Below are positions 3,437 through 34,746 of a stretch of DNA of 57,941 nt, in pieces. Location: IMG/VR virus record IMGVR_UViG_3300050821_003306, positions 1 through 57,941 of that record. One strand, given 5' to 3'. Within the stretch, counting starts at the first letter, position 1. Each line of letters starts with the position of its first letter. The notes under the pieces are model-generated. The model ran no database searches and was not told the DNA's origin. It saw nothing but the letters and a program-made list of their open reading frames with translations. Made by a program: the position numbers and the translations under genes. Source of the stretch: a virus.

Positions 3437-5785
3437 TCACGCTCGTAGTCCATTACCACGGAAAAATTTTTCTCCGATGCCACTCATCGGTCCCGTAGGC
3501 TCTTCACGTAACTCTGCTTCTTGATCGGGATAGTATTGAGATACCCCAAATCCACCGCTGTTACTCCCGAAAAGCAATTTATGAGTTTCTTTACGGATGT
3601 AATCTCTATATCTAGCTTCTTCGTCTGCGGCCTTCTGCTCTAGCTCTCTTTTCGAAAGAGCAACCAAGCTAGGAACGAATCTCGACAATTGAGAAATGAC
3701 ATCAGGGACATCGTCCTTAAAGTAACGTGAACTTTTTTGTCCTTTATATGCTTCAAGCTGGTCGAACACTTCATTATTCCAAGTAGCAATCAAAAAGTAT
3801 AATCGATTGGTACGCAAAAGAGTTTCGACACCTTTAATTCTATTTCTCTTTGCATTTTCAGAATTATCCGGGGTATCCCACCTAATATATGGCCAATGAC
3901 CGTAGGTAGTTCTTGAAACCTCATTAATTCTTTCTTTCAATAACTGAAGTCCGCCTGTATCTTCACCGTACCACTGTTGTACGTGCCACTTATCATTCAT
4001 AGCGGCAATTCTATTAGCGATCTCTGTTTGAGACCATTTACCGAACTGCACATCAAGAATGGTCATAACCCACTTTCCAGCTTGGCGGTCAACAGAAACC
4101 GTATCCGCCATATCTTCTGGAACGAGAACAGCGCCCTCTTGATAGACCTTACCGACAGCAAGTGCAGTAAAATCAGAAAACTGTTTGTTCTCACGGGCTA
4201 AATCAATAGCTCCGTAAACGTATCCGAAATCTCTCATTCCTGGACGGGGTAATATATCAGATAAAGTTTTCGTTTTATGCTCTTCTAGCAAAATACGATT
4301 AATATCAATCGTACTTTCTTCTCCCCAAACGGGCTGATTAAGCTGCTGGCATCGAAAACTTCTTTCATTCTTCATCTTCTTTCGAAGATCAAGCCAAGAC
4401 TGGTGTGAAGTCCCCGCTAATTCAGGAAAAACCAAATCAACCATATCTTCGGTCAATTCATAAATATTACGTTGCTCAATTGCTTTATATTCGGGCTTAA
4501 CTCTCCAGCATGCGCGTTCAAAATACTTCAAATTGAACATTTCTGGATTGTCTTCCCAAGTTTTCTTAGCTACACCATAATAATCATTCGGAAAATATCT
4601 CGTACCGATGATGTCGTGCCAACCCCAAGGCATCAACATATTAACCGCGCCATCAGCTTTGAACTGAACTTTTGCGCGTGTTTCTTCGTTGTCGCTATTC
4701 GTATCCGTAACAATATCATCAAACTTTGTGATATCGTTATGGAACCCAGTAAGGGTTGACGGAACTGAAATAATACCAAGTGTCGGGTCCGCAGAAAAAT
4801 GACGCTGTGGAGCGCGAGTATCTTCGGAAAGTCTTAAAGGTTCGGTCGAAGTTCCTGCCACACCACGTATCACATATTCTGGAAATAACAAATGAAATAC
4901 ATCTGGACGAATCCCTTTCGGCAAATAGAAAGAACGCTTCTTGGGACCGACCTTAATCATGGCCAAAAACTGTTCCGCTAGCTTTACAACTCCACTAACA
5001 ATGAGAATTCGTATATCTGGACAATTTATTATCCACGATATACAATCCACGGCATCTATACTAGACTTGAAAAAACCACGAGGGTCTAACAAGATCATAG
5101 TTCTAGCGTAATTTACAGTTTTTTCTGCTTCTATCGGGTCTCGAACGTATTTTCCGTAATTCCTAATTAACTCTGTACGATCTTCAGGATATTTATAATC
5201 ACTCTCAGTAAATTCCCGAGTTTGCATCCAAATCTGACGTACGCGGCTCTGATTTCCTAATGCTTTTTGAAAATCTTCCTTAAGCCTATACCCGTCTCGG
5301 TATACACCGTCGAAATTCTTCGACACAAACTGATCGCAAACAATTTGGTGAACGTGAGGCTGTAAATCAAGATCAAAAACCTCTTTTGCGAGCCAATACA
5401 AATCCTTACGGGCTTGATCTCTAGCATATAACCACTGGTCGAAATGGAGATATCCCCATGCCCCTGTGTGATGTTTACCCTTTTCTGAAAAACGACCAGG
5501 CAATTCAAATGCAATAATCGGAATAACTTGACTAATTAAATCGATCTTTGATTTTTTCTTACCGCGAGATTCTTCTTCAGGAGTAGGTTCTCCACCGACT
5601 CCTGCAACATATAAATCCCACAACTCTTCATATGACAACACCTCTGATCGAAAACGAACTCCGTTAGATTCCGCATCTAATTGCTTTACTCGGTCAGGCC
5701 AAAATGCACGCTGTTGAGCTATACGCCCCCATTCCTTGTGATGAAGCCAATTATATCTATCCTTTTCTATTCCTGTTATGGGCAT
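3437..5785 (-). CDS. terL: Terminase large subunit (packaging ATPase and nuclease)
   Basis: 782 residues. Translocates DNA into the procapsid and cuts concatemers. A Walker A-like LLDPRGFFKSS is at about residues 230-240; a Walker B-like KFDDIV follows at about 350. The C-terminal RNase H-fold nuclease has its acidic residues in AIDLARENKQFSD (about 525), YGEDTGG (about 605) and KDDVPDVIS (about 690). The protein is long for a terminase because of a roughly 200-residue N-terminal region. No small terminase subunit is recognisable nearby. Start ATG at 5785, 7 bp before portal. Confidence 0.9.
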   Translation of the reverse strand: MPITGIEKDRYNWLHHKEWGRIAQQRAFWPDRVKQLDAESNGVRFRSEVLSYEELWDLYVAGVGGEPTPEEESRGKKKSKIDLISQVIPIIAFELPGRFSEKGKHHTGAWGYLHFDQWLYARDQARKDLYWLAKEVFDLDLQPHVHQIVCDQFVSKNFDGVYRDGYRLKEDFQKALGNQSRVRQIWMQTREFTESDYKYPEDRTELIRNYGKYVRDPIEAEKTVNYARTMILLDPRGFFKSSIDAVDCISWIINCPDIRILIVSGVVKLAEQFLAMIKVGPKKRSFYLPKGIRPDVFHLLFPEYVIRGVAGTSTEPLRLSEDTRAPQRHFSADPTLGIISVPSTLTGFHNDITKFDDIVTDTNSDNEETRAKVQFKADGAVNMLMPWGWHDIIGTRYFPNDYYGVAKKTWEDNPEMFNLKYFERACWRVKPEYKAIEQRNIYELTEDMVDLVFPELAGTSHQSWLDLRKKMKNERSFRCQQLNQPVWGEESTIDINRILLEEHKTKTLSDILPRPGMRDFGYVYGAIDLARENKQFSDFTALAVGKVYQEGAVLVPEDMADTVSVDRQAGKWVMTILDVQFGKWSQTEIANRIAAMNDKWHVQQWYGEDTGGLQLLKERINEVSRTTYGHWPYIRWDTPDNSENAKRNRIKGVETLLRTNRLYFLIATWNNEVFDQLEAYKGQKSSRYFKDDVPDVISQLSRFVPSLVALSKRELEQKAADEEARYRDYIRKETHKLLFGSNSGGFGVSQYYPDQEAELREEPTGPMSGIGEKFFRGNGLRA

Positions 5786-14230: not shown

Positions 14231-14339
14231 AGAAATCTCCTGAAATAAAATACTCGCTACTTGAACTACGTGAAAGTGTAATGCCAGAAGATTAACGGCG
14301 TGCTGTGGTGGGTTCAGACTTGCTAACTGATAGAAACAC

Positions 14340-14369
14340 AAAAGCCGCCTCGGTTAAGAGACGGCTTTT
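14340..14369. terminator. Bidirectional terminator-like hairpin at the end of the tRNA array
   Basis: AAAAGCCG and CGGCTTTT enclose a 14-nt loop. On the minus strand the stem is followed by a T-run, directly downstream of the last tRNA (14378). It probably ends or processes the array transcript. Confidence 0.65.
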
Positions 14370-14377
14370 AAGATTGG

Positions 14378-14453
14378 TCGAGTAAACTGGATTCGGACCA
14401 GTGTGCTCCCCCTTCCGAAGGGGGCGAGATAAGCCAGGCTCCTCTATTACTCG
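14378..14453 (-). tRNA. tRNA-Pro(CGG)
   Basis: Acceptor CGAGTAA/TTACTCG with A73 and encoded CCA. The anticodon stem is CCCCC/GGGGG with loop TTCGGAA. C1-G72 fits proline identity. The T-loop is TCCGAAT instead of TTCGAAT. Confidence 0.85.
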
Positions 14454-14458
14454 AATGG

Positions 14459-14544
14459 TCGGGGTGAAAGGAATTGAACCTTCAAGGGATTTCTCCACTG
14501 CTTTCCAAAAGCAGACCGCTGCCAGATTACGGACCTACACCCCG
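14459..14544 (-). tRNA. tRNA-Pro(TGG) with a long variable arm
   Basis: Acceptor CGGGGTG/CACCCCG, A73 and CCA match bacterial tRNA-Pro. Anticodon stem CTGCT/AGCAG, loop TTTGGAA. It is 86 nt because the variable region is 14 nt and can fold as GGA-GAAA-TCC, which is class II-like and unusual for proline. Confidence 0.75.
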
Positions 14545-14550
14545 ATAAAA

Positions 14551-14784
14551 TTATCTAAACATTCCTGCCCAGAATGCTCCGGCTATTTGACTACAAAAAT
14601 CAATACCTGCTTTTCCAAAGGTATCTCGACCTTGGTGATAATCAAGATATTCTTCATATCCACGCCAGGCTACCAAGACAAGAAAACCACTCCAGCCAAG
14701 AAAATATACAGCCAGGCCGACAGGAATTCCAAAACCGAAAAAGTGAAGCGGAATCTTTTTCAATGCATCTATAATTCCGTTCAC
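14551..14784 (-). CDS. Small membrane protein in the tRNA array
   Basis: 77 residues from a GTG at 14784 preceded by AGAGGA. Two hydrophobic helices (about residues 12-42), then a charged loop (YEEYLDYHQGRD) and a weakly hydrophobic end. No family recognised. It is cotranscribed with tRNAs. Confidence 0.6.
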   Translation of the reverse strand: MNGIIDALKKIPLHFFGFGIPVGLAVYFLGWSGFLVLVAWRGYEEYLDYHQGRDTFGKAGIDFCSQIAGAFWAGMFR

Positions 14785-14802
14785 GATTCCTCTTTAATTT
14801 GG

Positions 14803-14874
14803 CTGACAGAGAACGACTCGAACGTTCATCTTACGGATTCAGAGTCCGAAATGCTACCATTGCACCATCTGTCA
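14803..14874 (-). tRNA. tRNA-Gln(CTG)
   Basis: Acceptor TGACAGA/TCTGTCA, G73, CCA encoded. Anticodon loop CTCTGAA on a TCGGA/TCCG stem. Nearly identical to its neighbour tRNA-Gln(TTG), so the pair arose by duplication. Confidence 0.9.
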
Positions 14875-14883
14875 ATAAATTGG

Positions 14884-14955
14884 CTGATCGAGAACGATTC
14901 GAACGTTCATCTTACGGGTTCAAAGCCCGAAATGCTACCGTTGCACCATCGATCA
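14884..14955 (-). tRNA. tRNA-Gln(TTG)
   Basis: Acceptor TGATCGA/TCGATCA, G73, CCA encoded. Anticodon loop CTTTGAA. Confidence 0.9.
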
Positions 14956-14965
14956 ATAAAATTGG

Positions 14966-15039
14966 ACTACCGGGTGGAACTCGAATCCACTAAGAGCAGT
15001 TTTGCAGACTGCCGTCTCGACCACTTCGACATCCGGTAG
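14966..15039 (-). tRNA. tRNA-Cys(GCA)
   Basis: Acceptor CTACCGG/CCGGTAG, U73 (the cysteine discriminator), CCA encoded. Anticodon stem GCAGT/ACTGC, loop CTGCAAA. Confidence 0.9.
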
Positions 15040-15112
15040 TTGGTCCCCGACCAATGCTTACGCGTCAGCCAGGGATGGTGGTCTCCGGGGCGAACCCCTC
15101 GGACCGTGAAAC
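15040..15112 (-). ncRNA. Structured spacer with UUCG-capped hairpin
   Basis: The 73-nt gap between tRNA-Cys and tRNA-Ser holds GGGG-TTCG-CCCC (minus strand), a very stable tetraloop hairpin extended by GGTC/GACC. GGTCC near its 5' end can pair with GGACC near its 3' end. No tRNA features; may be a separate small RNA or a processing element. Confidence 0.4.
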
Positions 15113-15115
15113 TGG

Positions 15116-15204
15116 AGGAAGACCAGAGAATCGAACTCTGTCCCGCCGCTGAGTGACGAGGCGCTGTTTTCAAGACAGTTGACCGCCATCGGTCGCCGTC
15201 TTCC
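15116..15204 (-). tRNA. tRNA-Ser(TGA)
   Basis: Class II, 89 nt. Acceptor GGAAGAC/GTCTTCC, CCA encoded, long variable arm. Anticodon loop CTTGAAA. The discriminator is U, not the G usual for serine. Confidence 0.8.
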
Positions 15205-15215
15205 TTAAAATTTGG

Positions 15216-15298
15216 CGGAGCGGGAGGGACTTGAACCCCCACGTGCTTTCACACGCGAGTTTAGCAAACTCGTCCGGCTACCATTTCGGCACCGCTCC
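15216..15298 (-). tRNA. tRNA-Ser(GCT)
   Basis: Class II, 83 nt. Acceptor GGAGCGG/CCGCTCC, G73, CCA encoded. Anticodon stem CGAGT/ACTCG, loop TTGCTAA. Confidence 0.9.
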
Positions 15299-15306
15299 GT
15301 ATTTAT

Positions 15307-15599
15307 GGTGAACAATAGCCTGGATTCTGTGCTGGTGTTTTTATGCCAGTGACCATCATCCATCTTCGCTCTCAACCCGGCCTTCATCACGTCCAACGAA
15401 CGCTCTGGCCCTATTTGAGATTGCACCTGTGTGGAGTGCCTTCGCTCGAATGACCCTTATAACGGCTGATTAAAAACTAATCAACCGCTATATGGGTACG
15501 AAGCCTTACCCGTACGCTTACGCGTCCCGCAACTTCCACGGCACAGCGTTGAAATGTGTCCAGAACTTCCTCGGTTTCCCGTGATAGTCTAGTTCACCC
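15307..15599 (-). ncRNA. rnpB: RNase P RNA (phage-encoded)
   Basis: A 293-nt minus-strand RNA whose ends pair as helix P1 (GGGTGAAC with GTTCACC). In order it carries the bacterial RNase P landmarks: CTAGACTATCACG near P2, GAGGAAGTTCTGGAC (compare GAGGAAAGTCCGGGC), a GGGTAAGG segment, then GGCACTCCACACAGG with GCAATCTCAAATAGGG (compare ACTCCACCC and CCAAATAGGG), GATGGATGATGG, and CACAGAATCCAGGCTAT (compare ACAGAACCCGGCTTAT). It is the catalytic RNA that cuts 5' leaders from pre-tRNAs. It sits inside the tRNA array on the same strand, just after tRNA-Ser(GCT) in map order. No RnpA gene is visible, so it would borrow the host protein. Confidence 0.88.
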
Positions 15600-15604
15600 T
15601 AAAC

Positions 15605-16057
15605 TTAATTATCTGATGCTCCGTTAACAAGTTCAACGCATGACTTGTACTCTTGCATTGCGTTTTCTGCCAACTTCGAAGCATCGTCATCTTCCATAAT
15701 AAAGATGACCGCTTGGGCTTCACCGTCTACTGAAAAAACGCCCACGCTATTTTTAAAATTCAAAACCAATTCGAGCTTTCGCTTCTTTGCGTTCACATAA
15801 AGATAATGAGAACCTAAATCATCCTTCGATTGAAACTCATATAACACCGGATGATCTTGCTTTTCAGTAACGCCTGGCGCTGTACTAATCCAGTCTATCT
15901 TCAAATCTTTATTTACTACCACAACATGTGCTGCCGCAAATTGACCTGGCGCACAAGACCCTAGATCATAACCCTTAGGCGCTGGTTTATCTTGCGCCGT
16001 CGCAAATGATGCGATTAACAAGCATGAAGCGAAAATCAATCCGCGAAGAAATTTCAT
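15605..16057 (-). CDS. Secreted/periplasmic protein in the tRNA array
   Basis: 150 residues with a clear signal peptide: basic start MKFLRG, hydrophobic LIFASCLLIASFATA, cleavage near AQD. The mature part is soluble with two Cys (about 35 and 140) that may form a disulphide. SD GCGGAG precedes the ATG. Its leader (16058-16130) can form two exclusive hairpins (GGCAC/GTGCC or CGAGCA/TGCTCG), the latter ending beside the SD. It stops 6 bases before RNase P RNA. Function unknown. Confidence 0.65.
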   Translation of the reverse strand: MKFLRGLIFASCLLIASFATAQDKPAPKGYDLGSCAPGQFAAAHVVVVNKDLKIDWISTAPGVTEKQDHPVLYEFQSKDDLGSHYLYVNAKKRKLELVLNFKNSVGVFSVDGEAQAVIFIMEDDDASKLAENAMQEYKSCVELVNGASDN

Positions 16058-16140
16058 AAGTCTCCGCGAGCATTTGACAAGGCACTGCTCGTTTAAATGT
16101 GCCGCCCATTAATCTGGTCCCTTGTTCGGCGTGTAACTGG

Positions 16141-16213
16141 TGACTCTACAGAGATTCGAACTCTGATAGTAACTTTAGGAAAGTTACGCCCTATCCATTT
16201 GGACGATAGAGTC
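16141..16213 (-). tRNA. tRNA-Arg(CCT)
   Basis: Acceptor GACTCTA/TAGAGTC, A73, CCA encoded. Anticodon loop TTCCTAA. Its first two bases overlap the stop codon of the HNH gene upstream. Confidence 0.9.
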
Positions 16214-16550
16214 AAATTCTCGATGCTGTTCTTAAACGATGACAATTCGCACAAACAACATCGCATTTCTCAATTTCTTTCAACAAAGCTGTGATAGAAA
16301 CACCGTAATATCCTATTGATATATTAAACAGCTTCTTTCCTCTTACATGATCGAAATCCATACACACTGTAGGAAATCTATGTTTACAATCTGCGCACGA
16401 TTTATCTTTTGTCACTACAATAATATCTTTATAAAGTCGTTGCTTTCTTTCCTCGGCTTTATCGAGATAATACTGCTTGTTTTCTTTATAGTGCTTGCGA
16501 ATGTAATTCGCACGATATTTCTTTCGATCTGCTTTGTTCTTAAACGGCAT
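16212..16550 (-). CDS. HNH-type endonuclease (homing-like) 1
   Basis: 112 residues. A basic N-terminus with Tyr/Lys repeats, then CADCKHRF, MDFDHVRGKK (the catalytic His in a DHV motif) and VCANCHRLRT, the second zinc knuckle, which together form a Cys-bracketed HNH nuclease of the kind found as free-standing mobile genes in phages. It lies between two tRNA-Arg genes; the stop overlaps tRNA-Arg(CCT). The SD GGAGAG is inside a hairpin (see 16554-16595). Confidence 0.8.
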   Translation of the reverse strand: MPFKNKADRKKYRANYIRKHYKENKQYYLDKAEERKQRLYKDIIVVTKDKSCADCKHRFPTVCMDFDHVRGKKLFNISIGYYGVSITALLKEIEKCDVVCANCHRLRTASRI

Positions 16551-16553
16551 TCA

Positions 16554-16595
16554 ACTCTCCGCAATAGAGTGCTGGGTGTGATTGCGGCACACCCA
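16554..16595 (-). promoter_or_regulatory. Double hairpin sequestering the HNH-1 ribosome binding site
   Basis: On the minus strand TGGGTGTG/CACACCCA (16573-16595, 8 bp perfect) is followed by ACTCT-ATTGCGG-AGAGT (16554-16570), whose loop and 3' arm contain the SD of the HNH gene. The same layout precedes the second HNH gene at 21922. Confidence 0.6.
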
Positions 16596-16615
16596 ACCGC
16601 GTAGCTACAAACTGG

Positions 16616-16687
16616 TGGCCCCATCGGGATTCGAACCCGAATACGCTGATTAGAAGTCAGCGGTCCTATCCATTGAACGACAGAGCC
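16616..16687 (-). tRNA. tRNA-Arg(TCT)
   Basis: Acceptor GGCTCTG with TGGGGCC (several G-U pairs), A73, CCA encoded. Anticodon stem GCTGA/TCAGC, loop CTTCTAA. Confidence 0.85.
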
Positions 16688-16695
16688 GAAACTGG

Positions 16696-16766
16696 CAGGG
16701 GAAGAGAGACTCGAACTCCCATAACTGGTTTTGGAGACCAGAGTACTTCCGTTGTACGATTCCCCT
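16696..16766 (-). tRNA. tRNA-Trp(CCA)
   Basis: Acceptor AGGGGAA/TTCCCCT, G73, CCA encoded. Anticodon stem CTGGT/ACCAG, loop CTCCAAA. Confidence 0.9.
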
Positions 16767-16770
16767 AAAA

Positions 16771-16860
16771 TTTGCCTTCTGAGATTACTCAGATCACGTT
16801 CGGTCGAAACGTCCGGCAGTGACCGGAATATCCCGCGATACGCACGGGCGCGTTTGCAAA
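16771..16860 (-). ncRNA. Multi-hairpin RNA of unknown class
   Basis: Directly after the collagen-like gene, 90 nt closed by TTTGC/GCAAA and holding four successive perfect hairpins (minus strand): CCCG/CGGG, TCCGG/CCGGA, ACGTT/AACGT (loop TCGACCG) and CTGAG/CTCAG. No coding frame and no tRNA pattern. It is bounded by the same A/T-rich linkers as the tRNAs. Confidence 0.5.
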
Positions 16861-16861
16861 A

Positions 16862-17335
16862 TTAAGCGTGATCGCCTTTATCTCCCTTGTCCCCTTTATC
16901 GCCCTTGTCACCCTTGTCGCCTTTATCACCCTTCAAACCGTTATTTCCGTTTGCGCCGGAGTCACCCTTATCTCCCTTATCGCCCTTTACGGAATCGCCT
17001 TTATCGCCCTTGTCTCCCTTCGCGCCTACATCACCCTTAGCGCCGGAAGAACCTAGATCGCCTTTATCGCCCTTCAATCCTGAATCGCCCTTGTCACCCT
17101 TTACAGAGTCACCCTTGTCACCTTTCGGACCCGCTGGGCCTACATCACCTTTATCGCCCTTATCACCTTTTGCAGCGGCTGTTCCGTCAGCACCTTTTGG
17201 ACCCGGGACGCCTTGTAATCCTTGCGGACCTGCCGGGCCAACTGCACCGGACTTTTTCAAACCTAAAACTAATGAGACAGCAGCAACTGCTAGTGCAACA
17301 CCTGAAGCGATCAATGCGGGGTCAATTGCCATCAT
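16862..17335 (-). CDS. Membrane-anchored collagen-like protein
   Basis: 157 residues. An N-terminal hydrophobic helix (about residues 9-26) is followed by about 40 Gly-X-Y triplets, mostly GDK and GPA/GPK, to the end. ATG at 17335 is preceded by AGGAG. Collagen-like triple helices occur in phage tail or surface proteins, but here the gene lies alone between tRNAs and has a membrane anchor, so a host-surface or virion role is open. The coding repeats could also be a site of expansion and contraction. Confidence 0.75.
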   Translation of the reverse strand: MMAIDPALIASGVALAVAAVSLVLGLKKSGAVGPAGPQGLQGVPGPKGADGTAAAKGDKGDKGDVGPAGPKGDKGDSVKGDKGDSGLKGDKGDLGSSGAKGDVGAKGDKGDKGDSVKGDKGDKGDSGANGNNGLKGDKGDKGDKGDKGDKGDKGDHA

Positions 17336-17360
17336 GTGTTCTCCTATACTTTAAAACTGG

Positions 17361-17431
17361 AGCGGGTGATCGGATTTGAACCGACCCTCTCAACTTGGAA
17401 GGATGATGTGCTGCCGCTACACTACACCCGC
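17361..17431 (-). tRNA. tRNA-Gly(TCC)
   Basis: Acceptor GCGGGTG/CACCCGC, U73 (glycine-type), CCA encoded. Anticodon loop CTTCCAA. Confidence 0.9.
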
Positions 17432-17443
17432 TTAAAAACTTGG

Positions 17444-17514
17444 AGCGATGTATCAGAATTGAACTGACGCCCGAACGTTGGCAACGTTCTGTACTACCAC
17501 TATACTAACATCGC
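17444..17514 (-). tRNA. tRNA-Gly(GCC)
   Basis: Acceptor GCGATGT/ACATCGC, U73, CCA encoded. Anticodon stem GAACG/CGTTC, loop TTGCCAA. Begins directly after the stop codon of the gene at 17515. Confidence 0.9.
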
Positions 17515-17760
17515 TTATAAACCTTTAAACATCTTCAGAGCATCGTCTTTCAATTTCTGCTCTTCTGGAGTTAAATTAAATTTCATTTTAAACTTCGCCG
17601 CGCCATTACGGGGCGGTTTGTGCGGACCAGCTAGTTGAACATTTTCTTGTTGCTCAACAAACTGTCTCGCTTGCGCTTCTGAAGTAAAAACTTTTTCAGT
17701 ACGGGTTCCGTCTTGGTTCAACACATGCGCTCGGAAACCGCCGTCCCAGGTCCACTTCAT
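17515..17760 (-). CDS. Small soluble protein in the tRNA array
   Basis: 81 residues, SD AGGAG before ATG at 17760. The N-terminal half is beta-like (FRAHVLNQDGTRTEKVF) with a SEAQARQFVEQ helix; the C-terminus is basic and helical. The stop touches tRNA-Gly. No domain recognised. Confidence 0.6.
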   Translation of the reverse strand: MKWTWDGGFRAHVLNQDGTRTEKVFTSEAQARQFVEQQENVQLAGPHKPPRNGAAKFKMKFNLTPEEQKLKDDALKMFKGL

Positions 17761-17776
17761 AGCACTCCTAAATTGG

Positions 17777-17845
17777 TTGCAGAGGTGGGAGTCGAACCCA
17801 CGGAGGCTAGGTTATGAGTCTAGCTTGAATCTCATTCTCCCTGCA
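17777..17845 (-). tRNA. tRNA-Met(CAT), short D-arm
   Basis: Acceptor TGCAGGG/CTCTGCA, A73, CCA encoded. Anticodon loop CTCATAA as in elongator tRNA-Met. Only 69 nt: the D-arm reads GAAT-GAG-ATTC and lacks the usual GG, and the closing pair of the anticodon stem is A-C. Lysidine-modified tRNA-Ile2 is the alternative. Confidence 0.8.
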
Positions 17846-17850
17846 ATTGG

Positions 17851-17931
17851 TGCGCCGCCCGAGACTCGAACTCGGATGCAATTAAGCCGGGGGTTTTAAG
17901 TCCCCTACGTCTGCCGTTCCGCCAGCAGCGC
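17851..17931 (-). tRNA. tRNA-Leu(TAA)
   Basis: Class II, 81 nt. Acceptor GCGCTGC/GCGGCGC, A73, CCA encoded. Anticodon loop CTTAAAA on a GGGG/CCCC stem with an A-C closing mismatch. The last codons of the gene at 17905 overlap its 5' end. Confidence 0.85.
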
Positions 17932-18123
17932 CAAACTTTCTTTCGGAAGTCCCATACTCAAAATGAGATTATCCGATTCTTTAAAATCAACTTGTGTTGC
18001 CTGCTGAAGAGATTCGTAAGAAACAAAATCAGCTTCGTTTAAATCGCGAATCTTAACGCGATCACCTTGAAGCATCCTACGTCTTTCAGCTTCTCTTCGT
18101 ACACCGTCAAAAGTTGATTTCAT
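17905..18123 (-). CDS. Small protein starting just after a tRNA CCA
   Basis: 72 residues, MKSTFDGVRREAERRR..., charged and helical. The ATG lies 5 bases after the CCA of tRNA-Leu(TAG) with no SD, so after tRNA processing the message would be nearly leaderless. The 3' end overlaps tRNA-Leu(TAA) by 27 bases. Protein-like composition, but the overlap and missing SD lower confidence. Confidence 0.45.
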   Translation of the reverse strand: MKSTFDGVRREAERRRMLQGDRVKIRDLNEADFVSYESLQQATQVDFKESDNLILSMGLPKESLALLAERQT

Positions 18124-18130
18124 AAATTGG

Positions 18131-18212
18131 TACCCGATGAGAGACTTGAACTCTCAATTCCGTAAGGACGCTGGTTTCTAAGACCAGAGCGTATGCATTC
18201 CGCCAATCGGGT
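18131..18212 (-). tRNA. tRNA-Leu(TAG)
   Basis: Class II. Acceptor ACCCGAT/ATCGGGT, A73, CCA encoded. Anticodon stem CTGGT/ACCAG, loop CTTAGAA. Confidence 0.9.
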
Positions 18213-18217
18213 ATTGG

Positions 18218-18290
18218 TAGCATCGGAGGGATTCGGACCCTCGTGTCTTCCTTGAAAGGGAAGCATCCTAGACCACTAGATGACGTTGCC
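18218..18290 (-). tRNA. tRNA-Glu(TTC)
   Basis: Anticodon stem CTTCC/GGAAG, loop CTTTCAA; T-loop TCCGAAT; CCA encoded. The acceptor GGCAACG/CGATGCT has a G-U at pair 1 and one mismatch. Confidence 0.8.
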
Positions 18291-18301
18291 ACAAAATTTG
18301 G

Positions 18302-18372
18302 TAGCCCTAAGCGGAATCGGACCGCTACTACGTCCGTGAGAGGGACGCGACCTACCATTAATCGATAGGGCC
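18302..18372 (-). tRNA. tRNA-Glu(CTC)
   Basis: Acceptor GGCCCTA/TAGGGCT, CCA encoded. Anticodon stem CGTCC/GGACG, loop CTCTCAC. Confidence 0.85.
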
Positions 18373-18376
18373 GAAA

Positions 18377-18613
18377 TTATGTTCCGCGAACCGGGTCGAG
18401 ATCGCCTTTCAGGACTCCACCCTTAATCATTTGCTCCGGCGTAAATACATTCGGGTCAAAATGATTCTCATGGTTCAACAGATACTGCGGAGTCAGAGTT
18501 TTCTTATCTGACTCTGGAAGTTTTGCCGATCTCTGTTTTCTAGCTACAGAGTAATCGTTAGGTTGTTTGCCGTTTCTTCTAGCTTCACGGACAACCGAGT
18601 ATTCATCAGGCAT
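18377..18613 (-). CDS. Small charged protein in the tRNA array
   Basis: 78 residues, ATG at 18613 preceded by GAGGA. The N-terminus has a repeated YSV(V/A)R(E/K) unit (EYSVVREARRNG then DYSVARKQRS). No family recognised. Lies between tRNA-Asp and tRNA-Glu. Confidence 0.6.
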   Translation of the reverse strand: MPDEYSVVREARRNGKQPNDYSVARKQRSAKLPESDKKTLTPQYLLNHENHFDPNVFTPEQMIKGGVLKGDLDPVRGT

Positions 18614-18628
18614 ACTTCCTCAATATGG

Positions 18629-18702
18629 CGGTGCCAGCGGGATTCGGACCCGCGAAAACTCCCGTGACAGGGGAGTGTAATAGGCCACTATACGACGGCA
18701 CC
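18629..18702 (-). tRNA. tRNA-Asp(GTC)
   Basis: Acceptor GGTGCCG/TGGCACC, G73, CCA encoded. Anticodon stem CTCCC/GGGAG, loop CTGTCAC. Confidence 0.9.
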
Positions 18703-18711
18703 GTAAAACGT

Positions 18712-18766
18712 TCTTGCGCCTCGGTGAGGGAGTAGGAAATGCAACCCAACTCGTATTCCCGCAAGA
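18712..18766 (-). ncRNA. Orphan structured unit with 7-bp closing stem
   Basis: TCTTGCG and CGCAAGA close a 41-nt interior. It occupies a tRNA-like slot between A/T-rich linkers but has no T-loop or anticodon arm. Confidence 0.4.
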
Positions 18767-18776
18767 CTCAGACTGG

Positions 18777-18847
18777 AGCTTCGACAGAGAATCGGACTCT
18801 GATCTAACCCTTACCAAGGGTTTGTTCTACCACTGAACCATCGAAGC
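18777..18847 (-). tRNA. tRNA-Thr(GGT)
   Basis: Acceptor GCTTCGA/TCGAAGC, U73, CCA encoded. Anticodon stem AACCC/GGGTT, loop TTGGTAA. Confidence 0.9.
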
Positions 18848-18871
18848 AAAAACTTTAAGCCGATATTCTTT

Positions 18872-18910
18872 ACGCCTCTGGCCATTGGGCGACTTCCTCC
18901 CAACGGGCGT
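18872..18910 (-). ncRNA. Nested hairpin unit between tRNA-Thr genes
   Basis: ACGCC/GGCGT encloses TTGGG/CCCAA on the minus strand. Short, no tRNA features; it may be a processing element or another small RNA. Confidence 0.3.
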
Positions 18911-18917
18911 TACTTGG

Positions 18918-18989
18918 AGCATCGTGTTGGAATCGAACCAACGTTACTGGTTTACGAAACCAGCGTCTTCCCAATTAGACGAACAATGC
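18918..18989 (-). tRNA. tRNA-Thr(CGT)
   Basis: Acceptor GCATTGT/ACGATGC, U73, CCA encoded. Anticodon stem CTGGT/ACCAG, loop TTCGTAA. Confidence 0.9.
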
Positions 18990-18997
18990 AAAACTTC

Positions 18998-19055
18998 TTG
19001 AATGGGAGCAACATTTCTGACGTTTCTTCGTGGACTGCGTACCATTCTCATTCAA
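18998..19055 (-). ncRNA. Orphan structured unit with 7-bp closing stem
   Basis: TTGAATG and CATTCAA close a 44-nt interior that ends TGTTGCTCC, resembling the 3' motif of the Y RNAs, but the 5' Y motif is absent. Confidence 0.4.
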
Positions 19056-19062
19056 AACTTGG

Positions 19063-19133
19063 AGCCGGATGAGTGAATCGAACACTCGCCAAAGAGGTAC
19101 AAGCTCTTCGTTCTACCGTTAAACTAATCCGAC
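19063..19133 (-). tRNA. tRNA-Thr(TGT)
   Basis: Acceptor GTCGGAT/ATCCGGC, U73, CCA encoded. Anticodon stem AAGAG/CTCTT, loop CTTGTAC. Confidence 0.9.
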
Positions 19134-19143
19134 TAAAATCGTA

Positions 19144-19273
19144 CCCTGGGCGACAAGCGGCGAAAGTGTTTTCGGTGCTACCATTACACTAGATGCATCT
19201 CACGATGCAATTGCGGATTCGAACCGCTCCCGTTCTTTATCAGAGAAGTAACTCTTGCCTAACGGCACCAGAG
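19144..19273 (-). ncRNA. Y RNA 1 (YrlA-type, with tRNA-like domain)
   Basis: 130 nt. Lower stem CTCTGG/CCAGGG; Ro60-binding motif TGCCGTTA, upper-stem strand GGCAAG, then AGTTACTTC; 3' motif TGTCGC. The apical part is a circularly permuted tRNA mimic: T-arm GCGG-TTCGAAT-CCGC, an acceptor-like stem closed by a GTGA tetraloop (GCATC-GTGA-GATGC), then a D-arm GTGTAATGGTAGCAC. There is no free CCA, as in bacterial YrlA RNAs. Such RNAs bind Ro60 and tether it to an effector. It is transcribed with the tRNAs. Confidence 0.75.
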
Positions 19274-19283
19274 AACATCGTAA

Positions 19284-19411
19284 GATCATGAGGCAACAAG
19301 CGCATTAGGATATGCCGAGACTACCCGGCGTTAGCGTCTGTAGCTGCTGCACCTTTCGGCACATTGCAGCTTTTCAGTAGAAGTAACCCAACACTAACGG
19401 CACTCACGATC
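19284..19411 (-). ncRNA. Y RNA 2
   Basis: 128 nt. Lower stem GATCGTGAG/CTCATGATC (9 bp, one G-U); TGCCGTTA, then GTGTTG and GGTTACTTC; 3' motif TGTTGCC; upper stem AGTGT pairs with GCGCT. The apical domain differs from Y RNA 1: a GAAA-capped hairpin within AGCTGC/GCAGCT and no T-loop, so its effector may differ. Confidence 0.7.
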
Positions 19412-19421
19412 TAAAATTATT

Positions 19422-19513
19422 GCAAGGCAACAGCACTCAAAGAATAGCGGTGTCGAAACCGCCGACCCTTTCGGGTTCTTATCCAAGAAGTAACTCTGAA
19501 TTACGGCACTTGC
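19422..19513 (-). ncRNA. Y RNA 3
   Basis: 92 nt. Lower stem GCAAG/CTTGC; TGCCGTA, upper strand ATTCA pairing with TGAGT, AGTTACTTC; 3' motif TGTTGC; a TTTT run follows the 3' end. The apical part has ACCC-GAAA-GGGT and a T-arm-like GCGGT-TTCGAC-ACCGC. Confidence 0.7.
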
Positions 19514-19521
19514 GAAACTGG

Positions 19522-19593
19522 CTGAAGGCATAGGATTCGAACCTACATCGTTCCGGTTAACAGCCGGACGTCTTACCGTTAGACGAACCTTCA
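19522..19593 (-). tRNA. tRNA-Asn(GTT)
   Basis: Acceptor TGAAGGT/GCCTTCA, G73, CCA encoded. Anticodon stem TCCGG/CCGGA, loop CTGTTAA. Confidence 0.9.
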
Positions 19594-19604
19594 ACAAAAC
19601 TTAA

Positions 19605-19691
19605 TGACGATACGCCCGGTCACTTTCGCAACCTACGTCTGTACTAGCCCTCTACGGGTCGTCCGTACGTGGTGTTCACGCTGCATCGTCA
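19605..19691 (-). ncRNA. Orphan structured unit with 7-bp closing stem
   Basis: TGACGAT and ATCGTCA close a 73-nt interior rich in short pairings. Flanked by AAGTTTT-type linkers like the tRNAs; no T-loop or anticodon. Confidence 0.4.
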
Positions 19692-19698
19692 AACTTGG

Positions 19699-19770
19699 TA
19701 GACTGTGCAGGACTCGAACCCGCATGAGCACGTTCGAAGCGTGCCATCCTGTCCATTGGATGAACAGTCC
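19699..19770 (-). tRNA. tRNA-Arg(TCG)
   Basis: Acceptor GGACTGT/ACAGTCT, A73, CCA encoded. Anticodon stem GCACG/CGTGC, loop CTTCGAA. Confidence 0.9.
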
Positions 19771-19780
19771 GTAAAACTGG

Positions 19781-19852
19781 TGGGCCTGTGGAGATTCGAA
19801 CTCCAATAACTGGTTTCGTAGACCAGTACCTTGTCCGTTAGATGACAAGCCC
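19781..19852 (-). tRNA. tRNA-Arg(ACG)
   Basis: Acceptor GGGCTTG/CAGGCCC, A73, CCA encoded. Anticodon loop CTACGAA; A34 would need the host deaminase to become inosine. Confidence 0.9.
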
Positions 19853-19857
19853 GAAAA

Positions 19858-19980
19858 TCAATGATGCAACTTATAAAGAATGAAGAGACTCGCTATCACG
19901 CCGATCACATTACAGATCGTTCTTATCAGGGCCAGGGTCAGTTCGAACTTGTTCGGTGACGACCTGGATTCCGCTGACAT
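19858..19980 (-). CDS. 40-residue membrane microprotein overlapping the next gene
   Basis: ATG at 19980 with AAGGA seven bases upstream; it reads MSAESRSSPNKFELTLALIR and continues with a hydrophobic helix (VIGVIASLFILY) to the stop. It overlaps the 3' 71 bases of the gene at 19910-20179 in another frame. The nested arrangement recalls spanin pairs, but there is no lipobox, so this is only an analogy. Confidence 0.55.
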   Translation of the reverse strand: MSAESRSSPNKFELTLALIRTICNVIGVIASLFILYKLHH

Positions 19981-20179
19981 TCTTGTCTTCCTTTTTCTTA
20001 CTACGTTGCTCGTACCACTTTCTTCTCAGTCCTAAATATTCCAACTGAGCTTTCAAACTCTCTTCAGCCGCCAATCGCATCGCTCTGTCGTCTTTCCAAA
20101 TACCGACCAGGAAATACAATGCGATCAGATCAACTGCCAGTGCCGCTGCCGATGTAACATCTGCTATCGTCACTATCAT
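19910..20179 (-). CDS. Small membrane protein with cytoplasmic helix
   Basis: 89 residues. N-terminal hydrophobic segment (about 10-28, AALAVDLIALYFLVGIW), then a charged helical part and a hydrophilic tail. ATG at 20179 follows the CCA of tRNA-Val by 5 bases without an SD, as for two other small ORFs of the array. The 3' end overlaps the 40-residue frame. Confidence 0.55.
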   Translation of the reverse strand: MIVTIADVTSAAALAVDLIALYFLVGIWKDDRAMRLAAEESLKAQLEYLGLRRKWYEQRSKKKEDKNVSGIQVVTEQVRTDPGPDKNDL

Positions 20180-20187
20180 AAAATTGG

Positions 20188-20260
20188 TACCCGATAAGAG
20201 AATCGAACTCTTCCTGCTGGTTTGTAGGACCAGAACATACGACCAGTTTGCTAATCGGGT
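20188..20260 (-). tRNA. tRNA-Val(TAC)
   Basis: Acceptor ACCCGAT/ATCGGGT, A73, CCA encoded. Anticodon stem CTGGT/ACCAG, loop CCTACAA. Confidence 0.9.
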
Positions 20261-20400
20261 ATAATTCGAAACCGTTGTCCCTTAACCGGAGGCGCTAGAA
20301 CATGTGTGAACTTAATAGTCGCCATCAGTACGGATAACTTCTTTCCGTCCCAATAAAATATCGGGCGCTTCTCAATTTTCATTACAATTGGTTCGAACAT
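20251..20400 (-). CDS. Possible 49-residue protein between tRNA-Val and tRNA-Ala
   Basis: ATG at 20400 begins MFEPIVMKIEKRPIFYWDG, 5 bases after the CCA of tRNA-Ala, with no SD. The product is beta-like and basic. The stop lies inside the tRNA-Val 5' end. Weak evidence. Confidence 0.35.
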   Translation of the reverse strand: MFEPIVMKIEKRPIFYWDGKKLSVLMATIKFTHVLAPPVKGQRFRIIPD

Positions 20401-20409
20401 AAAATTTGG

Positions 20410-20480
20410 TGGACCGTACGAGACTCGAACTCGTATCATCTCGGTGCAAGCGAGATAGACTCCCATTATCCTAACAGCCC
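20410..20480 (-). tRNA. tRNA-Ala(TGC)
   Basis: Acceptor GGGCTGT/ACGGTCC with the G3-U70 pair that marks alanine, A73, CCA encoded. Anticodon loop CTTGCAC. Confidence 0.92.
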
Positions 20481-20568
20481 ACGGTACCCCGGAAACTTAC
20501 GCTCACCGGGTAACATTCTTCATGTCCGGCTGACAGCGCATCGGTTCTCCCGAGGCTTACAAAATTGG

Positions 20569-20639
20569 TAGTCGGTCAGTGATTCGAACACTGATACCCC
20601 GCTAATCAGGCAGGAGTCCTACCGTTGAACGAACCGACT
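20569..20639 (-). tRNA. tRNA-Ile(GAT)
   Basis: Acceptor AGTCGGT/ACCGACT, A73, CCA encoded. Anticodon stem CCTGC/GCGGG, loop CTGATTA. Confidence 0.88.
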
Positions 20640-20720
20640 ATAGAAACTTTGCGTCTTGTCGTAACGCTGTGAGACGGACCACTAACAACTCCCGGTACTC
20701 CGTCAACGTTCAGAAACTGG

Positions 20721-20806
20721 TGGATGGTGTAGGACTCGGACCTACGGAAGCCCTCAAGGGGCACCTGGGTTACAGCCAGGGGCAATTGCCGCTATGCGAA
20801 CCATCC
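20721..20806 (-). tRNA. tRNA-Tyr(GTA)
   Basis: Class II as in bacteria, 86 nt. Acceptor GGATGGT/ACCATCC, A73, CCA encoded. Anticodon stem CCTGG/CCAGG, loop CTGTAAC. Confidence 0.92.
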
Positions 20807-20912
20807 ACTGAAATTCTGGGAACCTGCGGGTCATTCACCCACACCATCCTACGAGTCCGCTAGCGGATATCGTAAGCGTTCAATCTACCTCGAACTGCGT
20901 CCCCACGAAACT
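20807..20912 (-). other. Inter-tRNA spacer with long hairpin
   Basis: The 100-nt gap between tRNA-Tyr and tRNA-Lys contains TACGA/TCGTA enclosing the palindrome TCCGCTAGCGGA. No tRNA or coding frame seen. Confidence 0.35.
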
Positions 20913-20915
20913 TGG

Positions 20916-20988
20916 TCGGTCATGAGAGGCTCGAACTCTCAACCCATCGCTTAAAAGGCGAGTATGTTGCCGCTAACACTTATGACCG
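20916..20988 (-). tRNA. tRNA-Lys(TTT)
   Basis: Acceptor CGGTCAT/ATGACCG, A73, CCA encoded. Anticodon loop CTTTTAA on a 4-bp stem (outer C-U mismatch). Confidence 0.88.
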
Positions 20989-20997
20989 AAAACTTGG

Positions 20998-21069
20998 TGG
21001 ACCGCGAGAGACTCGAACTCTCACCCGTCAGCTTAAGAGGCTGCTATGCCGCCGTAACACCTGCGGTCC
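20998..21069 (-). tRNA. tRNA-Lys(CTT)
   Basis: Acceptor GGACCGC/GCGGTCC, A73, CCA encoded. Anticodon stem CAGC/GCTG, loop CTCTTAA. Similar to its neighbour, suggesting duplication. Confidence 0.88.
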
Positions 21070-21079
21070 AGAAAACTTT

Positions 21080-21131
21080 GACAGCTTGTTGTCGAAGAAC
21101 GGACTTGAATCGGAATTCTACCGATGCTGTC
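21080..21131 (-). ncRNA. Orphan structured unit with 6-bp closing stem
   Basis: GACAGC/GCTGTC encloses ATCGG/CCGAT and a single-stranded part. Flanked by tRNA-type linkers; identity unknown. Confidence 0.35.
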
Positions 21132-21159
21132 TACGCCGTCTCACGTATTACAAACTTGG

Positions 21160-21248
21160 TAGTCGATGACGGAATCGGACCGTCCGGCAAGCCTAATCAG
21201 GGCCAGAAGAGTTTATAAGACTCTGCCACGCTGCCAGCGAAATCGACT
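21160..21248 (-). tRNA. tRNA with TAT anticodon (Ile) and class II variable arm
   Basis: 89 nt. Acceptor AGTCGAT/ATCGACT, nearly the tRNA-Ile(GAT) acceptor; A73, CCA encoded. Anticodon stem AGAGT/ACTCT, loop CTTATAA. The variable region is about 23 nt with an inner CCT-GATT-AGG hairpin, which is not normal for isoleucine. Confidence 0.7.
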
Positions 21249-21255
21249 GAATAAT

Positions 21256-21351
21256 ATCCGTGAGGGAATCGAACCCTTATTCACATAAGCGCGGTAACGT
21301 TTTAGGTGAACAAGCACCCGAGAGATTACCGTCTCCGCTGTGCTCACAAAT
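21256..21351 (-). ncRNA. tRNA-like element without CCA
   Basis: A good T-arm (AGGG-TTCGATT-CCCT) and an acceptor ATTTGTG/CACGGAT with two G-U pairs frame 96 nt, but no CCA follows and no anticodon arm can be drawn. CGGTAA and TTACCG inside could pair over a distance. Degenerate tRNA or a tRNA mimic. Confidence 0.4.
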
Positions 21352-21362
21352 TTCAAACTTGG

Positions 21363-21445
21363 TCCGCCGCGAAGGATTTGAACCTTCACGCCACTAAGGG
21401 CGCTCCGTCTTGAGCGGAGTGCGTCTGCCGTTTCACCAGCGGCGG
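21363..21445 (-). tRNA. tRNA-Leu(CAA)
   Basis: Class II. Acceptor CCGCCGC/GCGGCGG, A73, CCA encoded. Anticodon stem CTCCG/CGGAG, loop CTCAAGA. The HNH-2 reading frame runs 60 bases into it. Confidence 0.88.
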
Positions 21446-21922
21446 AGAATTCTTTCTTCCACTTCTGCCAGCAAAATCTTCCGTTTGCGAATGACAGTTA
21501 GGACACTCAAAATGTAAATTCTCTTTTCTATTATCTAAAGAATCTCCATTTTTATGACTTATTTGAAGAACTAGAACTTCATTATTCCAGATCGGCAATA
21601 TGCCACAGGTATCACAGATATGTTCTATACCCGATTCGATCATCGCTCTTCTTAAAACTTCAGTCTGCTCTTTACGCCCATTACGATTATTTACTAATCG
21701 CTCTGTCCAGTGTCGTTTTTGGCAGCCGCCTTTATGATTCTCACCACAATTACGACGCCGTCCGAGAAAATGAGACGTATCAAGACCAAACTTCTTAATT
21801 CGTTTTGAGATATACTGTTGAGTTCCACCATTAGGATTCTTTAATCCCAATCTTCTGGTAACTTCAGCAACACTCAAACTATCTCGAACAATAGATTCGA
21901 GAATCTCTTTAGTATGTTTCAT
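21386..21922 (-). CDS. HNH-type endonuclease (homing-like) 2
   Basis: 178 residues. An N-terminal helix-turn-helix-like part (SVAEVTRRLGL), then CDTCG, LQISHKNGDSLDNRKENL (HNH core with catalytic His) and CPNCHSQT. The frame continues into tRNA-Leu(CAA), so the last 20 residues are translated tRNA sequence; the enzyme domain ends before this. Likely a mobile gene inserted beside the tRNA. The SD lies in a hairpin loop (21924-21944). Confidence 0.8.
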   Translation of the reverse strand: MKHTKEILESIVRDSLSVAEVTRRLGLKNPNGGTQQYISKRIKKFGLDTSHFLGRRRNCGENHKGGCQKRHWTERLVNNRNGRKEQTEVLRRAMIESGIEHICDTCGILPIWNNEVLVLQISHKNGDSLDNRKENLHFECPNCHSQTEDFAGRSGRKNSPPLVKRQTHSAQDGAPLVA

Positions 21923-21923
21923 T

Positions 21924-21966
21924 CCTGTCTCCCTTAAAGACAGGCCGGGGTGTTAAGGGCACCCCG
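21924..21966 (-). promoter_or_regulatory. Double hairpin sequestering the HNH-2 ribosome binding site
   Basis: On the minus strand CGGGGTG/CACCCCG (21946-21966, perfect) is followed by CCTGTC-TTTAAGGGA-GACAGG (21924-21944) with the SD AAGGGA in its loop, directly before the ATG. Same design as for HNH-1. Confidence 0.6.
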
Positions 21967-21988
21967 ACCCAATGATGCATCAAATTGG

Positions 21989-22060
21989 TCCTGGACCAGG
22001 GAATCGGACCCCGTACGCCCACGTCTTCAGCGTGGCGCTCTACCAATGAGCTAGACCAGG
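21989..22060 (-). tRNA. tRNA-Phe(GAA)
   Basis: Acceptor CCTGGTC/GTCCAGG with one mismatch, A73, CCA encoded. Anticodon stem CCACG/CGTGG, loop CTGAAGA. Confidence 0.88.
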
Positions 22061-22301
22061 AATAAAAGTATACGCCGCGACAAACGTTTCGAACCGGACG
22101 CCTTCGTCACAACGGGTGGCCAGCCTATGAAGCCGGAAACACGAGGTCTCCGACATCGGCCATGAGGTTTCACCAGATTAGTCTGCGCAAACTTCAGCGT
22201 CTCTCCGGCAAAACTTCGTTTAAGAAGTTCCGATCATGAATCGCGCCTTGGGCGGTTGATCGGATTCATTCGCCTAGGAATCGGACCCGGCAAACAAAAT
22301 T
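22061..22301 (-). other. 240-nt structured region with T-loop-like motifs, no canonical tRNA
   Basis: On the minus strand GGGTCCGATTCC (about 22275) and CCGGTTCGAAACG (about 22105) look like T-arms but lack partners. Between them TCCGATCA/TGATCGGA and TGAATC/GATTCA are two mutually exclusive stems over the same segment, and ACTTC/GAAGT forms a hairpin. No coding frame with an SD is seen. Confidence 0.35.
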
Positions 22302-22371
22302 AGTGACCTGCCGTTCATCGTGCTGGCGTTGGCAACTGACAGCCTTCCCATCTCTGCTATGCGGGGCCACT
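22302..22371 (-). ncRNA. Orphan structured unit with tRNA-like acceptor stem
   Basis: AGTGGCC/GGTCACT (7 bp, one G-U) closes a 56-nt interior. Size and closing stem resemble a tRNA but there is no T-loop, CCA or anticodon arm. Confidence 0.4.
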
Positions 22372-22381
22372 TAAACTTTGG

Positions 22382-22455
22382 GGTGTTCAACGAGAATCGA
22401 ACTCGCTATGTTCGGATTCACAGTCCGACGCGTCACCGTTATCGCCCTGAACACC
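22382..22455 (-). tRNA. tRNA-His(GTG)
   Basis: G-1 opposite C73, acceptor GTGTTCA/TGAACAC, CCA encoded: the diagnostic histidine end. Anticodon stem TCGGA/TCCGA, loop CTGTGAA. First tRNA after the array promoter. Confidence 0.92.
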
Positions 22456-29591: not shown

Positions 29592-29795
29592 ATGAAGGCA
29601 CAGGGATATGTGGTGTATATGAAATTGGCTCTTACAGGCAAATATGCCGCATATACAAATTTGAAGAAGCCCTGTACCTTGGAGATGGCTGAAAGTTTGT
29701 TAGAGCATTTACGGCGAAACAAAACATCGGCAATGATAGTACAGATGCCGACAGGAGAAATTGTGAAAGAGTTTGCGGAGGTAGTTCAATGGTAG
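29592..29795 (+). CDS. Small protein ending inside a tRNA
   Basis: 67 residues from ATG at 29592, SD GGAGG. N-terminal beta (QGYVVYMKLALTGKY), C-terminal helix. The last codons and stop lie in the tRNA at 29775. Unknown. Confidence 0.6.
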   Translation: MKAQGYVVYMKLALTGKYAAYTNLKKPCTLEMAESLLEHLRRNKTSAMIVQMPTGEIVKEFAEVVQW

Positions 29796-29844
29796 AACAT
29801 ACGACTCCAATCGTAGATAGCGGTTCAAATCCGACTCCTTCGCT
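29775..29844 (+). tRNA. tRNA (Gly- or Trp-type) overlapping two coding regions
   Basis: Acceptor GCGGAGG/CCTTCGC, U73, CCA encoded at 29845-29847; T-arm with TTCAAAT loop. The anticodon stem TACGA/TCGTA leaves a 6-nt loop CTCCAA: CCA (Trp) if read normally, TCC (Gly) if the closing pair opens. GCGG acceptor and U73 favour glycine. Confidence 0.65.
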
Positions 29845-34348: not shown

Positions 34349-34746
34349 AGAAAACTAACCTAGCGTGGGCTGCAGGATTTCTTGATGGCGAAGGACATTT
34401 TCGCGCAACCCGAGTACAAATAGTAACAAGAAAGAACGGAAAGAAAGGTATCAAATCATATTCTTACTTTCAAATAGCAGTAGTGCAGTCTCATTTAGCA
34501 GTTCTCAATAGATTGAAGCGGATAATCGGAGGAGCTATTCAAGGTCCTTACCACTACCCGCCATCAAAACCGTATTGGTCGATGGTTGTATGCACTAACG
34601 CTGAAAAAGTTTTCAAGAAACTGTTTCCGTATCTTTCGATAGTTAAAAGAGCGCAAGGTAAGGCAGCTATTTCTCAAGTCATTAAAAGAAACGCACGATT
34701 AGAGCGACGACTCGACAAGGAGCTTTATGATGATAACGCCAGCTAA
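34345..34746 (+). CDS. LAGLIDADG homing endonuclease
   Basis: 133 residues from ATG at 34345 (ATGA overlap). One LAGLIDADG-type motif, AAGFLDGEGHF (about residues 8-18), so it would act as a homodimer. Strong basic content. Free-standing mobile gene between a coiled-coil gene and an exonuclease gene. Confidence 0.85.
   Translation: MKKTNLAWAAGFLDGEGHFRATRVQIVTRKNGKKGIKSYSYFQIAVVQSHLAVLNRLKRIIGGAIQGPYHYPPSKPYWSMVVCTNAEKVFKKLFPYLSIVKRAQGKAAISQVIKRNARLERRLDKELYDDNAS

Follow-up and report, generated by a model that had tools for sequence, protein, structure and literature searches.

The DNA analyzed here, referred to as the window, is a viral record of 57,941 bases (IMG/VR record IMGVR_UViG_3300050821_003306, full length). 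Within its tRNA array the window contains an RNA that sequence and structure comparisons support as a phage-encoded RNase P RNA. As a catalytic RNA, RNase P RNA is among the most ancient, and its gene is regarded as cellular. That a family of these RNAs is found in viruses, under clear selection, indicates that phages can bring parts of the tRNA-maturation machinery alongside tRNAs.

Identification of the RNA and its locus

The Rfam model RF00010 matched positions 15600–15301 of the minus strand from end to end (model positions 1–367) with 76.0 bits and E = 2.4e-23, the significant covariance-model match that a sequence-only reading of this DNA had proposed as a check. The score lies under the curated RF00010 gathering cut-off (100 bits), while some relatives score 100–112; a gathering-level Rfam scan alone misses the window RNA and an E-value-based scan detects it. 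The folding energy gave an MFE z-score of −4.34, with 0 of 100 shuffles equally low. The conserved RNase P blocks named in the sequence-only reading were all three found on the minus strand in the order given, and its paired ends (P1) were recovered as 15598–15592 pairing with 15313–15307, which places them correctly to within one base. Failure of P4 to pair had been set beforehand as grounds for rejection; P4 does pair, with a bulged U. The proposal that the tRNA array contains an RNase P RNA encoded by the phage was thus upheld by the covariance-model score, covariation including P4 and P6, a conserved position beside tRNA genes, and virion and replication genes on the record. The present analysis adds that P4 is rewritten, that the S domain is largely lost, that relatives lack a detected rnpA, and that the family is widespread.

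The record encodes a terminase, a portal protein, a family-A DNA polymerase, a helicase and a primase. Features of the locus were as follows (coordinates, strand, feature):

1324–3429, minus: portal protein/head-tail connector (phrog_332, E = 3.2e-20; phrog_1216, E = 3.8e-18)
3437–5785, minus: terminase large subunit, a tailed-phage marker (phrog_38, E = 3.8e-34)
14339–14370, minus: terminator-like hairpin just past the last array tRNA (consensus scan only)
14375–22454, minus: array of 32 tRNA genes, CCA encoded in 32/32 (ARAGORN)
15213–15298, minus: tRNA-Ser(gct), directly downstream of the RNase P RNA (ARAGORN)
15307–15598, minus: RNase P RNA, divergent type-A-like, P1 to P1 (RF00010 match and covariation over 20 relatives)
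15605–16057, minus: 150-amino acid ORF with apparent signal peptide (L123 and L178 have homologues in the same position)

On the minus strand the order is tRNA-Arg(cct), the short ORF, the RNase P RNA and tRNA-Ser(gct). The stop codon of the ORF lies ~6 nt upstream of P1, and 2–8 nt separate the 3′ end of the RNA from tRNA-Ser(gct). Although ARAGORN does count 34 tRNAs in the window, the number given earlier for the phage, the array itself holds 32, and two (29775 and 30883, plus strand) lie outside it. A promoter-like site precedes the array (22611–22583) and a weaker one lies inside the end of the 150-amino acid ORF (15636–15608), both as consensus matches only. The short flanks leave little space for an own terminator or an intergenic promoter. 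Since the 5′ end lies ~6 nt past an ORF stop and the 3′ end abuts pre-tRNA-Ser, the RNA would be made within a long transcript of the tRNA array. A collagen-repeat protein gene (16862–17335, minus strand) also lies amid the array tRNA genes, and a related ORF is present in L178.

Secondary structure and covariation

Twenty family members were aligned, and a type A structure including the P4 and P6 pseudoknots was written out from the window sequence. Over the 20 members, 93.2% of cells were paired (75.0% in shuffles), 250 cells were compensated (73.0 in shuffles) and 50 pairs had changes on both sides (30.3 in shuffles); when one strand was slid, pairing fell to 33–40%. Covariation was seen in P6, P7, P9, P10, P15, P16 and P17. 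Pairing in P1 reached no more than 59% here; a register shift of its 3′ strand in many members is the apparent cause. Elements of the catalytic domain were located as follows:

15548–15552, minus: P6 5′ strand, pseudoknot with 15393–15397 (5/5 pairs covary)
15393–15397, minus: P6 3′ strand, in the P17 loop (covariation with 15548–15552)
15527–15541, minus: P8 hairpin CCGUGGAAGUUGCGG, the signature used for collecting the family (variant in the related record L279)
15514–15525, minus: P9 with GUAA tetraloop (4/4 pairs covary)
15370–15420, minus: P15-P16-P17, with the GGU (CCA-binding) motif in CGGGU (invariant in 20/20 aligned members)

Class B RNase P RNAs have P5.1 and P15.1 instead of the class A P6 pseudoknot with P16-P17. 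The class A arrangement was found here, with 97.0%, 96.3% and 97.3% of cells paired, with compensatory changes, in P6, P16 and P17, respectively. The GGU motif of L15, which in class A pairs with the tRNA CCA, was likewise present, as CGGGU, in all 20 members. Also kept in 20/20 were GAGGAA, GCAA, CAA(A/G)UAGG, ACARAA and the bulged U.

A rewritten P4 helix

The two strands of P4 were assigned as follows, with positions in E. coli numbering (an E. coli rnpB row is also part of the tree below):

15559–15567, minus: P4 5′ strand AGUUCUGGA (E. coli 66–74), in which U at 15564 corresponds to bulged U69
15317–15324, minus: P4 3′ strand UCCAGGCU, pairing with 15559–15567

P4 is near-invariant in bacteria, and its 5′ strand read AAAGUC in 23 of 23 acidobacterial rnpBs parsed. 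The phage family had mostly AAGUUC and sometimes AACUUC, with the canonical AAAGUC in three members (L194, L224 and L279). Across the alignment 99.4% of P4 cells were paired, 5 of 8 pairs had changed on both sides and the bulged U was present in 20/20. Position 67 was G-C, A-U or C-G, position 68 U-G or G-C, position 71 C-G, A-U or U-A, and position 74 A-U, C-G, U-A or G-C (20 members). Every change in the 5′ strand was answered on the 3′ strand, with the bulged U retained. The rewritten helix is a natural experiment on which nucleotides are truly needed in the active-site helix.

A tree built from 57 RNAs united the window family in a single long-stemmed group (SH-aLRT 99), near whose base the three canonical-P4 members branched; the tree was a quick one that included the P4 columns, and its branching order is only indicative. 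Because these three members lie near the base of the family, P4 was probably rewritten inside phages. The low covariance-model score and shortened S domain could also be read as marks of a functionless, decaying copy of a host rnpB, a reading to which we give almost no credence, as it is contradicted by the covariation: 250 compensated cells, and P4 and P6 paired at 99.4% and 97% over 20 diverged members. The RNAs also form one family (SH-aLRT 99) in conserved synteny.

A reduced S domain

The S domain of the window RNA was delimited by alignment and structure:

15440–15503, minus: reduced S domain, comprising the P10 upper stem (15503–15499 with 15444–15440), a hairpin and the CAUUCGAG motif

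Between the P10 strands, family members had a single hairpin (only a short loop in L220 and L233) followed by CAUUSRAG or a close variant. P11–P14 and J11/12-J12/11 (CR-II and CR-III) of class A RNAs were absent from the phage family, as were the conserved blocks that contact the T loop in bacteria. The RNA had been described as shorter than host RNase P RNAs; this holds against acidobacterial rnpB, for which most lengths are about 340–500 nt, although acidobacteria may not be the host. With protein or high Mg2+ as an aid, the catalytic domain of RNase P RNA can cleave on its own; activity of the phage RNA is therefore plausible, and the stripped S domain would make this RNA a natural minimal RNase P.

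The palindrome TATAGCGGTTGATTA and its inverse, at about 15497–15453 on the minus strand, form the S-domain hairpin of the window RNA. The same palindrome was found in the S domain of L232 but in P3 of L197, and because of its position in L197 the hairpin may be a mobile element that inserts into variable helices of the ribozyme.

Distribution in viral contigs

The family was searched with a pattern combining CR-I and the P8 signature, GAGGAAN{18,40}CCGTGGAAGTTGCGG. The P8 signature was found in 22 viral contigs, pattern scans of IMG/VR giving lower bounds only. Two contigs of this set (L200 and L205) lacked an RF00010 match, and L205, which also had no tRNA nearby, may be a chance pattern match. 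Family members scored 66–112 bits with RF00010. Nearly all lay in tRNA arrays and, wherever they could be placed, on the same strand as their tRNA neighbors (0 opposite), with two main placements: between tRNA-Arg(cct) and tRNA-Ser(gct), which is the arrangement of the window, or between tRNA-Cys(gca)/Leu and tRNA-Lys. Contig IMGVR_3300002917_000007, with a terminase 85% identical to that of the window phage, carries a homologue of the RNA in the corresponding position; in a more distant phage record (G170, terminase 37% identical) the RNA likewise lies between tRNA-Arg(cct) and tRNA-Ser(gct). A terminase-related fragment without the RNA (G165) was considered and rejected as a counter-example, since the fragment, with a single tRNA-Pro near its edge, seems to end short of the array.

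The same pattern occurred at nine places in 84,980 bacterial and archaeal genomes, and only two of these match RNase P RNA. Both (L220 and L221; CABMCB010000059 and CABMCB010000038) are on tRNA-array contigs of the GTDB MAG "uncultured archaeon LFW-28" and, judged by their phage-type tRNA arrays, are probable misbinned phages. The P8 signature was found on no further RNase P RNA among the 84,980 genomes. The window record is itself metagenomic, which could point to bacterial DNA misassembled or misbinned into a viral contig. Many independent contigs have this RNA next to homologous tRNAs, the window record carries virion genes, and the signature is otherwise absent from RNase P RNAs of those genomes; this explanation is thus contradicted and is the least probable of all that were weighed.

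Two motif scans yielded RNase P RNAs in many further viral contigs; a 15-base motif scan of IMG/VR returned mostly chance matches. When the window RNA was compared by blastn with phage and plasmid records, no RNase P match emerged, and Tunturiibacter phage Tunturi_3, whose terminase match was weak but the best of any named phage, had no RNase P RNA. Named-phage matches to two other phage RNAs were set aside as records that are, or resemble, bacterial sequence, and among the plasmid matches of an actinophage-like RNA is an rnpB of ordinary appearance, on a plasmid-labelled replicon in Tsukamurella. Weak matches in two acidobacterial MAGs were not phage RNAs: the one in G163 is a masked rnpB of the host, and the one in G099 a partial duplicate. 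Two unannotated fecal contigs were also matched; the one tested contained an RNase P RNA that had no tRNA closer than 1.5 kb.

Comparison with other RNase P RNAs

With bacterial class A rnpB (RF00010, for example acidobacterial) the phage RNA shares the C-domain fold (P1–P10 and P15–P18), the bulged-U P4, the P6 pseudoknot, P15-P17 with GGU, the P9 GNRA loop and the ACAGAA joining region. It differs in being phage-borne in a tRNA array, in its rewritten P4, in the replacement of the T-loop module of the S domain and in the P8 sequence CCGUGGAAGUUGCGG. The main match in acidobacterial genomes (97 of 99 with a match) scored mostly 215–343 bits, as against 66–112 for the phage family.

Other phage-borne RNase P RNAs (L154–L159, L162, L166–L169, L170, L172 and L173) were likewise found in or beside tRNA arrays on the same strand. 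The tree places them apart from the window family; most have a canonical P4, scores reach 280 bits, and they accordingly look like separate or more recent captures. L154–L159 and L166–L169 are phage-like IMG/VR contigs with large tRNA arrays, and the RNAs of L166–L169 have an altered CR-I (GAGGAACCCCNGG). Very short RNase P RNA matches (207 and 227 nt) were seen in or near phage tRNA arrays in L165, L170 and L171; L165, seemingly without P11–P15, may represent a copy with a deletion or a miniature RNA.

Mycobacterium austroafricanum has second and third rnpB homologues, one with an altered specificity domain, and horizontal acquisition was suspected by the authors (PMC9569102). Those genes, likened here by description, are in a bacterial genome, and the paper does not show them to be phage-borne. 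RNase P RNAs of CPR bacteria have lost P12–P14, have low covariance-model scores and in some cases lack the UGG motif (PMC8172020); they are the sole rnpB of a cellular genome. The phage family, by comparison, retains the UGG motif. The tRNA array of mycobacteriophage Tonenili likewise holds a non-coding RNA gene (tmRNA), but no RNase P RNA. The absence of an RNase P RNA from both Tonenili and DSS3_MAL1, which have large tRNA arrays, indicates that the RNA is not needed for array maturation generally. The open literature searched, with subscription papers and preprints mostly outside it, contained no earlier report of a phage-encoded RNase P RNA, and its novelty is provisional.

Proposed function

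We consider it likely that the phage RNA acts as the catalytic subunit of an RNase P, with RnpA supplied by the host, and matures the phage tRNAs; its catalysis is inferred. No rnpA (PF00825) was detected in the window or in 39 further viral records, a set with many fragments, with 10 of 14 control genomes positive; because none was found in these 40 viral records, host RnpA is the likely partner. The RNA would fold into a type A catalytic domain and bind host RnpA, the GGU of L15 would dock the encoded CCA ends of phage tRNAs, and the phage RNase P would remove their 5′ leaders. Cleavage at the 5′ end of tRNA-Ser would at the same time free the 3′ end of the RNase P RNA. T-loop recognition by the S domain would be abandoned or replaced by the small conserved P10-hairpin-CAUUSRAG element. 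The changed P4 and the missing T-loop-binding module could leave activity lowered or altered. It is plausible that the enzyme cleaves the array and matters when host RNase P is limiting, as had been suggested, and the locus offers a concrete test for the idea of tRNA-rich phages becoming independent of host tRNA.

A refinement of this proposal, rather than its opposite, is that the enzyme is active and tuned to phage precursors, with their short spacers and CCA ends, and perhaps to odd T loops or non-tRNA targets. The uniform replacement of the S domain by the conserved CAUUSRAG element and the CCA encoded in 32/32 array tRNAs are consistent with such tuning. Among the substrate features tested, none separates phage from host tRNAs, and we rate the tuning as less likely than not. 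Also short of an even chance is a broader scenario of a phage-specific lineage freed from the sequence constraints of cellular RNase P, in which near-invariant P4 pairs were changed by compensation and T-loop recognition was replaced by a new small element. The enzyme would then rely only in part on host RNA, and the near-complete tRNA set of the phage could be matured despite destruction of host RNase P RNA or tRNA.

An altered P4, a lost S-domain module, a retained core fold and the lack of a detected RnpA would also suit a decoy, a poor enzyme with an RnpA-binding core that ties up RnpA or pre-tRNAs of the host and thereby reduces tRNA maturation there during infection. We regard a decoy as unlikely: it need not retain the bulged U, GCAA, CGGGU and ACARAA seen in 20/20 aligned members, shutdown of RNase P would also stop maturation of the phage's own 32 tRNAs, and a location inside the array suits a tRNA-processing role, as in the catalytic reading.

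Other genes of the window

A second RNA-handling gene of the window phage encodes a Ro60-like TROVE-domain protein (55758–57173, plus strand; PF05731, E = 5.5e-17; phrog_850). Also on the plus strand are genes for a Mom-family protein (29789–30622; PF25680, E = 9.6e-44), likely for DNA modification against restriction, a LAGLIDADG endonuclease (34294–34746), just ahead of an exonuclease gene, and a phage-encoded GroES-like co-chaperonin (40011–40601; Cpn10, PF00166, E = 3e-19).
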